A stretch of 64,000 nt of DNA from Phycisphaerae bacterium (lineage in GTDB: Bacteria; Planctomycetota; Phycisphaerae; Phycisphaerales; Phycisphaeraceae). The stretch spans positions 124,001 through 188,000 of the forward strand of contig JAUIGU010000002.1 in the NCBI GenBank assembly GCA_030432595.1, in the 5' to 3' direction. The position numbers and the translations under genes were made by a program. Below are positions 19,212 through 21,286 of this stretch, piece after piece. The notes beneath the pieces were generated by a model. The model did not search any database. It was not told the origin of the DNA and saw only the letters and a program-made list of their open reading frames with translations. Within the stretch, counting starts at the first letter, position 1. Every line of letters starts with the position of its first letter.

Positions 19212-19496
19212 ATGCCCGAGATCGAAGTCGGCACCGAAACCGAGACCGCCACGCACTGGGCGTACGACGTCCGCGTGTTCGACCAGGGCAGGACCCACAC
19301 CCACCGCGTCACGCTGTCGTTCCAGGACTACGACCTGTGGTCCCACGGCCGGGTCCCGCCCAGCCAGGTCGTCGACGCCTGCTTCCGCTTCCTGCTCGAC
19401 CGCGAGCCGGCCGACGACATCCGGGAGCACTTCGACTGCTCGGTCATCCGCCGGTACTTCCCGGAGGTGGATCAGGAGTTGCCGGCGTTGGTGTGA
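19212..19496 (+). CDS. Small conserved hypothetical protein
   Basis: 94 residues. The pattern HRVTLSFQDYDLWSHGRVPP followed by SQVVDACFRFLLDRE and VIRRYFPEVDQELP occurs in a small protein family spread over many bacteria (VTL..... D..LW.G...PP..V......FLLDR...), without known function. Acidic, soluble, probably cytoplasmic. Start fixed at 19212 by the -10 box and because the upstream in-frame extension runs through the hairpin repeat. A repeat-flanked cargo gene follows after 8 bases. Confidence 0.75.
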   Translation: MPEIEVGTETETATHWAYDVRVFDQGRTHTHRVTLSFQDYDLWSHGRVPPSQVVDACFRFLLDREPADDIREHFDCSVIRRYFPEVDQELPALV

Positions 19497-19504
19497 AGCT
19501 TTGT

Positions 19505-19536
19505 GAACCACCGATGGACACGGATGAACGCCGATT
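19505..19536 (+). repeat. Interspersed repeat, left copy flanking a cargo gene
   Basis: GAACCACCGATGGACACGG and on to 19536; matches the reverse complement of 19909-19940 at about 27 of 31 positions. It contains the start codon and first residues (MDTDER) of the gene between the two copies. Sequences of this type (ACCAC-GATG-AC-CGGATGAAC) are familiar around small cargo genes in planctomycete and other environmental genomes. Confidence 0.8.
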
Positions 19537-19903
19537 AGAGTTTGTCCGCTTCGTCGTTCTAAAGCAGGACCCACAATCTCACTCTGAGTTGGGTGTTTTT
19601 CAGGCAGCGTTCGAGCTTCGTGAGACTGGAACGCTGTCGGTCCACGAAGAAGAGCGCTTAGAACAAGAATTGTCCTGGCTCCGCATGCATTTGAAATCTC
19701 CCGCTTGTCTGCGCGAATCCGGCAATCAGCGGGCAATCGCCTGGTTCCATCCCCGAGCCCAGCGTCCAATCGAGAAAGTCAGAAACATCGCCGGTCTTCT
19801 TGAGGAGCACGGATTCCATGTCCGCATGATCAAAACGCATGACCCGGGAACCGTGATATACGAAGACGGGTGGCAGGTCATTGCGAAACCACGAAGGCGG
19901 TAA
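19514..19903 (+). CDS. Repeat-borne cargo protein, function unknown
   Basis: 129 residues, mixed charged helices. Segments: HSELGVFQAAFELRETGTLS, ELSWLRMHLKSPACLRESG, AIAWFHPRAQRPIEKVRNIA, GLLEEHGFHVRMIKTHDPGT and VIYEDGWQVIAKPRR. I recall similar proteins of unknown function in planctomycetes, but cannot name a family. Base and codon use differ from the neighbours: more A/T, for example TTAGAGTTTGTC near the start. The start codon and first six residues are encoded by the left repeat. It ends 3 bases from the rmuC stop codon, in convergent orientation. Likely arrived as a repeat-flanked unit. Confidence 0.75.
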   Translation: MDTDERRLEFVRFVVLKQDPQSHSELGVFQAAFELRETGTLSVHEEERLEQELSWLRMHLKSPACLRESGNQRAIAWFHPRAQRPIEKVRNIAGLLEEHGFHVRMIKTHDPGTVIYEDGWQVIAKPRRR

Positions 19904-19906
19904 AGA

Positions 19907-21286
19907 CTATCCGCGTTCATCCGCGTTCATCTGTGGTTCCATCTCTCGCGGCTCGCGCGGGGAGGATTCGACAATCGTGATCTCGCCCTCGGCCGGCAGT
20001 TCCTTGGGCGAATCGGCGCCGAGTTCCTTGAACCGGCGGGTCTGGCTGACGACCTGGGTCTCGAAGCTGCCGACGAACTTGTTGTAGTGCTCGACCGTCT
20101 TGCCGACCGCTCGCCCGAGGTTCGAGAGGTGCGACACGGCGGTGGCGACGCGCTTGTGCAACTCCTGCCCGAGGTCGCGGATCTGCTTGGCGTTCTCGGC
20201 GATCTGCTCTTCGCGCCAGCCCAGCGCGACGACCTTCAGCAGCGACACCAGCGTGGTCGGTGTGGCGATGACCACGTTGCGGTTCATCGCGCTCTCGATC
20301 AGCTCGGGCTTGCGCTGGGCGGCGGCGTACAGGAACGATTCGCCCGGAATGAACAGCACCACGAAGTCGGCCGTCCGGAAGTGGTCCTGGTACCGCTTGC
20401 TGCCCAGCTCGGCGACCTTGTCCTCGATGTGGCGGACGTGGCGCTGCAGCGCGGCCTCGCGGTCGTGGTCCTCGATCGCCTCGGCGGCGTCGATGAACGC
20501 GGTGATCGGCGTCTTCGCGTCCACCACGATCTCCCGCCCCCCCGGAAGTTGCACCAGCATGTCCGGGCGGAGGCCGCCCGAGCCCGAATCGACATGCGCC
20601 TGCTCAACGAAGTCGCAGTGCGCCACCATCCCCGCCAACTCGGCGACGCGGCGGAGCTGCAGCTCGCCCCACTGCCCGCGGACTTCAGGACGGCGTAACG
20701 CTTTGACGAGGTTCGCGGTCTCGTCGCGCAGGCGTTTCTGGTCTTCGAGCATCGAGCCGAGTTGCTGGCGCAGGCCGCCGTACGCTTCTTTGCGCGATTT
20801 CTCGATCTCGCCGATGGCGCGGGTGGCCTCGGCGAGCTTTTCCTGCACGGGCTTGACCAGCGCTTCGATGGCGAGCTTGCGTTTGTCGAGCTCGGTGCTG
20901 GCGTCCTTCTGTTTGCCGGCGAAGGTCTGCTCCGCCCTTTTTAAAAACTCGTCCGTGGCGTTCTTCAGCGTGTCGCCGGCGAGGGCCTTGAAGGTCTGCT
21001 GGGCCGCGGCGTCGGCCTTTTTGAGCGCGTCCTGGAAGCGGGCTTCGTTTTCTTTCAGCCGTTGATCGAAGTCGGCCCGCGCCTGATTGGCCAGCGCGAG
21101 TTCCTTGTCGAGCGTGGCGACGCGTTGCTGCTCGGCGTCGATCTGGTCGGCGTAGCCCTCGATCGCGCGTTCGCGTTCGGCGACGGTGCGCTGGGCGTGT
21201 TTCCAGAGGCGGTACAGCAGGACGGCTACGACCGCGGCCGCGAGGAGCGACACCGAGACGATCGCCAGCGCGAGTTCAAGGATCAT
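19907..21286 (-). CDS. rmuC: DNA recombination protein RmuC
   Basis: 459 residues. RmuC proteins limit recombination between inverted repeats; the core is a restriction-endonuclease-like fold. Seen: N-terminal membrane anchor (LALAIVSVSLLAAAVVAVLL), long coiled coil (residues 30-170), then the core LRRPEVRGQWGELQLRRVAE, GLRPDMLVQLPGGREIVVDA with the DAK triad in VVDAKTPITAF, and FVVLFIPGESFLYAAAQR. The C-terminal EPQMNADERG is encoded by an interspersed repeat and is not part of the family, so the original stop was probably replaced by the insertion. ATG at 21286 has TACAAT 6 bases upstream. Confidence 0.95.
   Translation of the reverse strand: MILELALAIVSVSLLAAAVVAVLLYRLWKHAQRTVAERERAIEGYADQIDAEQQRVATLDKELALANQARADFDQRLKENEARFQDALKKADAAAQQTFKALAGDTLKNATDEFLKRAEQTFAGKQKDASTELDKRKLAIEALVKPVQEKLAEATRAIGEIEKSRKEAYGGLRQQLGSMLEDQKRLRDETANLVKALRRPEVRGQWGELQLRRVAELAGMVAHCDFVEQAHVDSGSGGLRPDMLVQLPGGREIVVDAKTPITAFIDAAEAIEDHDREAALQRHVRHIEDKVAELGSKRYQDHFRTADFVVLFIPGESFLYAAAQRKPELIESAMNRNVVIATPTTLVSLLKVVALGWREEQIAENAKQIRDLGQELHKRVATAVSHLSNLGRAVGKTVEHYNKFVGSFETQVVSQTRRFKELGADSPKELPAEGEITIVESSPREPREMEPQMNADERG
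19909..19940 (-). repeat. Interspersed repeat, right copy, inside the rmuC 3' end
   Basis: On the minus strand GGAACCACAGATGAACGCGG and on to 19909, inverted relative to 19505-19536. It encodes the last residues of RmuC (EPQMNADERG) and its stop follows at once. Confidence 0.8.

Follow-up and report, generated by a model that had tools for sequence, protein, structure and literature searches.

The question raised by this locus is how a gene of 129 residues came to lie between two convergent genes, rmuC and ORF111, inside an inverted repeat that encodes the start of the gene's product and the end of RmuC. A sequence-only reading of the window (the whole 64-kb stretch of DNA that was analysed) had taken it for the footprint of an element that brings its own start codon and can land in the 3' end of a gene without disrupting it.

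The inverted repeat and the gene between its arms

The repeat had been described as 31 bp long, about 27 of 31 positions matching, around a gene of lower GC content, and this is exact – the 31-bp arms are complementary at 27 of 31 positions, and the cargo gene has 54% GC (59% at third codon positions, GC3) against 67% as the median of the window. A GC content this low occurs in just 0.3% of 390-bp windows. No other long inverted repeat (arms of at least 20 bp, within 1.5 kb) is found in the window, and the arm consensus had no matches in 100 shuffles of it. In each arm, the tip GAACCAC leads into 10-bp units (GGATGAACRC) that are nearly identical to one another. The cargo starts 17 bp after the ORF111 stop.

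Table 1. Coordinates of the repeat arms and adjoining genes within the 64-kb window
Feature	Position	Strand	Remarks
Left arm of inverted repeat	19505..19535	+	Tip GAACCAC and tandem 10-bp units; contains the cargo ATG (19514)
Right arm of inverted repeat	19909..19939	-	Codes for the last ten RmuC residues, EPQMNADERG
Passenger gene, probably captured, 129 aa, orphan family	19514..19903	+	First 9-10 residues are the arm and its edge
Element interior, 54% GC	19536..19908	.	Unrelated ORF in its place in same-genus relative G001
rmuC, convergent neighbour	19907..21286	-	3' end within right arm
ORF111, conserved small protein gene, other convergent neighbour	19212..19496	+	Upstream of cargo, same direction

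The two copies of the repeat do contribute to the two proteins as proposed. The C-terminus of RmuC reads ...EMEPQMNADERG, with its final ten residues inside the right arm, and the cargo stop (19901–19903) and rmuC stop (19907–19909) are indeed 3 bases apart. The start codon supplied by the left copy replaces the beginning seen in other members of the family: homologues with a clear start begin MYxRFV, and the cargo has the arm-encoded MDTDERRLEF instead, so the repeat's start has taken the place of the one that the gene lost. The RmuC domain stops at residue 428, about 20–30 residues ahead of the arm-coded tail, and is spared by the element. Together with the dispersal of the repeat described below, this bears out the idea of an element that entered the end of a gene without disrupting it.

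Homologues of the cargo were found at 80 loci in Planctomycetota, Pseudomonadota, Bacteroidota, Actinomycetota, Bacillota and other phyla, and in 5 of 31 relatives, this genome counted. The family is unnamed in Pfam, NCBIfam, PHROG and PADLOC, none of which gave a match worth keeping. Profile matches in the PDB were weak and fell on ferritin helices. The AlphaFold model (pLDDT 85) is confident except for the repeat-encoded tag; Foldseek gave nothing below an E-value of 0.9 and VIA-align nothing above Z 2.8, from which a new fold does not follow. None of 35 homologues was bracketed by such repeats above the 99th percentile of the controls. The closest order-level homologue (L306, the same locus as L032; 60% identical) lies within a dense array of tRNA genes, and one in Pseudoxanthomonas (L314:1780-2480) lies between two repeat copies that, judged by eye, resemble Xanthomonas attC sites and may be an integron cassette. 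Because homologues are not bracketed by the repeats and some have tRNA-array or attC-like settings, the cargo gene is a traveller on several vehicles, this element being one of them.

The junction and other element sites in related genomes

The convergent pair of ORF111 and rmuC is found side by side in several genera. The cargo and the RmuC tail are not shared by all relatives, as they would be if the earlier reading were mistaken: both are absent in G005, G013, G041 and G045, where the gap between rmuC and ORF111 is 15–45 bp with no insert. In the same-genus relative G001, the RmuC of which is 83% identical up to residue 448, the same repeat pair surrounds a different, unrelated ORF of 94 aa with two hydrophobic stretches. 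This pair outscores all 300 shuffles. The 94-aa ORF likewise starts within a repeat arm, the one beside ORF111, and in both species the arm codes for the last residues of RmuC, though in different frames – EPQMNADERG here and GTTDEPG in G001.

The repeat is dispersed. Using its 24-base core with at most 3 mismatches, 32 copies were counted in this genome, with none for the reversed control pattern, and 8 in all in G001. It is present in 19 of 61 relatives, counts that are not independent since the genomes are related; many of the genomes are drafts. The maximum is 172 copies in G037 (L138-L177); many of these belong to a longer unit that is itself repeated and has the shared flanks GGTGACGAGAAGTTGAAG ... 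CCTGAACGTTGCGGCTCA, often at the end of a contig, and they were not taken as proof of spread and were left out of the comparison of interiors.

The copies in this genome are mostly paired in inverted orientation as hairpins of about 70–300 bp, nearly all of the pairs spanning 71–260 bp, and their loops often hold a second, nested inverted pair of another unit type. The interiors of 17 hairpin elements have little in common except these nested arms. With ends that repeat across copies and interiors that differ, it is the arms that recur and not what lies between them. Several loci (L005, L006, L008, L010, L015, L016, L120, L131, L135) show shell-like nesting, one arm type outside another with few bases between, as if elements insert into one another's loops. 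In other genera, arms of this repeat class also enclose complete genes with recognised domains: a Bax inhibitor-1-like gene (PF12811, L136:644-1726) and an ion channel gene (PF00520, L127:1407-2232).

The comparison with G001 was extended to eleven more elements of this genome. G001 is empty at six of these junctions and has a different interior at one; two gave no clear picture and two (L001, L208) were not resolved. At the junction with a different interior (L006/L231), G001 has the same arms; this element adjoins the 3' side of a GTPase gene, read as der. Its right arm (L006:1497-1560, L231:1700-1860) codes for the hydrophobic core of an apparent signal peptide (SAFICVHLWF) of the downstream gene, as does the arm of the G001 counterpart despite the different interior, and it looks as though the repeat was recruited there as a signal sequence. 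A different repeat type in G001 was considered for L013 and L213, with shuffle-test p values of 0.4 and 0.01, and is not claimed. The elements sit directly behind stop codons. At the cleanest empty site (L188/L235, L188 being a GxxExxY element), the insertion lies between the stops of two convergent reading frames that end within a few bases of each other. No target-site duplication was found at this site, which has another arm type, nor at the other junctions, where the flanks have diverged.

From this evidence, the locus is likely to be a short inverted-repeat, non-autonomous element of the foldback (MITE/REPIN-like) kind, with a captured passenger gene, between rmuC and ORF111. What persists is the arms, with the gene as a passenger, since interiors are unrelated, the cargo family is unbracketed elsewhere and the arms in G001 hold another ORF. 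The proposal of an element bringing both a cargo and its start codon thus stands for the repeat, a dispersed end that gives the start, and not for the cargo, which is not its usual load. Other genes within the same repeat, for which a search had been suggested, are the G001 ORF and GxxExxY genes at six loci of relatives; most copies are short hairpins with unrelated interiors.

The arms would be the ends acted on during movement. A hairpin-like element would have inserted between the closely spaced rmuC and ORF111, probably in the ancestor of the genus. The host could have borne it since the arm can be read without stops in more than one frame and the RmuC domain ends upstream of the tail. The interior may then have been filled or exchanged separately in the two species, the turnover in place occurring by insertion into the arms or by recombination between them. 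In this species it would have picked up a gene, one of a mobile orphan family, that lost its own start in the process, and translation would begin at the arm ATG, adding a floppy repeat-encoded tag. The transcript would most simply be read-through from ORF111 upstream, and an RNA stem enclosing the start codon may hold expression of the cargo low.

Two independent insertions at a hot spot behind rmuC, by which each species would have gained a whole element and a cargo of its own, are less likely. At the 3' end of rmuC in G012, seen on the rmuC side, a related repeat pair encloses a gene for an ion channel (PF00520, 3.9e-37); other repeats lie behind rmuC in G007 and G015, as a hot spot would predict. 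Against this, the two species have the same arm family at the junction although G001 has so few copies in total, and the pattern of same arms and different interior recurs at L006/L231. Two species sampled in the genus are compatible both with one old insertion with a swapped interior and with two hot-spot insertions, and with more than one order of events.

Genes that may move the elements

Two repeat-bracketed ORFs in relatives (L129 and L134) encode GxxExxY proteins (PF13366; 1.1e-39 for L129). A family search found GxxExxY genes in 36 of the 61 relatives; there are 7 in this genome and none in G001, and this absence, with the few repeat copies of G001, was counted in favor of a link between the two. 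GxxExxY genes are bracketed by inverted repeats far more often than control genes. An ungapped flank test gave 34 of 48, a set that includes L129 and L134, which were chosen through their repeats, vs. 0 of 26 and 0 of 52 controls; a test across the phylum gave 15 of 22 vs. 0 of 44. In a uniform gapped test without L129 and L134, 61 of 68 GxxExxY (PDDEXK_3) genes were bracketed, vs. 7 of 193 controls.

The arms around GxxExxY genes are nearly always short tandem units, inverted: ACCACAGAGGCACAGAG, ACCGCCAAGACGCCAAG, AACCGCAGATTTCGCAGATT, and the arm family of the rmuC site. Exactly the last of these was found at the six loci in relatives and at no GxxExxY gene in this genome, the GxxExxY elements of which use other unit types. 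The element at the rmuC site shares this arm design, holds no GxxExxY gene, and has a cargo of another family; it would be a non-autonomous relative of the elements that bracket GxxExxY genes. Gene-free arms that resemble those of element L213, which carries GxxExxY, are nested in L008, L015 and L016, as is expected of autonomous and non-autonomous partners. Genes for four-helix-bundle proteins (TIGR02436) were bracketed in 24 of 29 cases in the gapped test, mostly by 7-bp tandem units (L245-L274). There are 10 copies of these genes in this genome and 1 in G001.

The association suggests that the class is moved in trans by its GxxExxY genes, the products of which are PD-(D/E)XK nuclease-like. 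Tentatively, transposase-free elements of this design may form a widespread class: their arms of short tandem units would be conserved ends that can be used again, and what lies between them could be exchanged. A GxxExxY nuclease-like protein or, in a parallel class, a four-helix-bundle protein would mobilise the arms and any gene caught between them, which gets a ready-made start codon. Both are very common protein families of obscure role, and they would gain a testable job as mobility genes of elements with inverted ends of tandem units. Such elements could be one route for bacteria to change small genes at a fixed chromosomal place. Their repeat sequence can be read without stops in several frames and can thereby provide a start codon, a protein tail or, at one locus, the core of a signal peptide. 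No description of such elements, GxxExxY (TIGR04256, PF13366) included, was found in the open-access literature, most subscription papers being outside the scope of the search.

It is unlikely that the element is a common MITE or REPIN belonging to a known transposase family (IS or RAYT/Y1) that picked up a gene by chance. The size, copy number, intergenic position and hairpin form all fit, but there is no interior common to the copies and no target-site duplication was found. Y1/RAYT genes, the positive control for bracketing, are also often bracketed in relatives, by self-palindromic repeats without the arm motif of the rmuC site; 1 of 30 Y1 loci contains this motif, and not at its bracketing repeat. 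RAYT was rejected as the mover on these grounds. No transposase for the element was found, in a search that was not systematic for other IS families.

It is quite improbable that the repeat pair is kept not by mobility but for an RNA function or as a terminator of the two convergent genes. Folded as RNA, the element gives a single long stem in which the paired arms cover the start codon, and it does far better than shuffles (z -4.2), and the position behind stop codons would suit this role; the empty junctions in four relatives, the six other junctions empty in G001, and the difference of 32 to 8 copies between two species of one genus argue against it.

Comparison with known systems

The promoterless single gene, swapped at a fixed place behind another gene, resembles an integron gene cassette, and attC-like repeats flank a cargo homologue in Pseudoxanthomonas, but it is very improbable that the arms are recombination sites of an integrase: an integron integrase above the family cut-off is found in 10 of the 61 relatives and in neither this genome nor G001, the arms as read from the sequence lack the attC core GTTRRRY, and there is no array.

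REPINs, which consist of paired inverted REP sequences and are moved by RAYT transposases (PMC3116915), are likewise inverted pairs of a short repeat with a variable spacer, intergenic and in many copies. Here, however, the arm is made of tandem 10-bp units and is not a palindrome of its own, there is no link to RAYT, and whole genes can lie between the arms.

The element has the terminal inverted repeats, shortness and copy number of a MITE. Like bacterial MITEs and the Rickettsia palindromic elements (PMC10969869), it is short and transposase-free, has terminal inverted repeats and makes in-frame additions to host genes. Unlike them, its copies have only the ends in common, the candidate helper is a GxxExxY nuclease-like gene and not an IS transposase, and the arm supplies the start codon of a captured gene.

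Intervening sequences of 23S rRNA with an S23 (four-helix-bundle) ORF are also inverted-repeat hairpins with a small ORF (PMC4990558), although the element here lies between two protein genes and not in rRNA, and its cargo is another one. The intervening sequence of Coxiella, which has heptamer repeats before the S23 ORF and for which a role of that ORF in mobility was proposed long ago (PMC4990558), is the nearest published hint of such a system.
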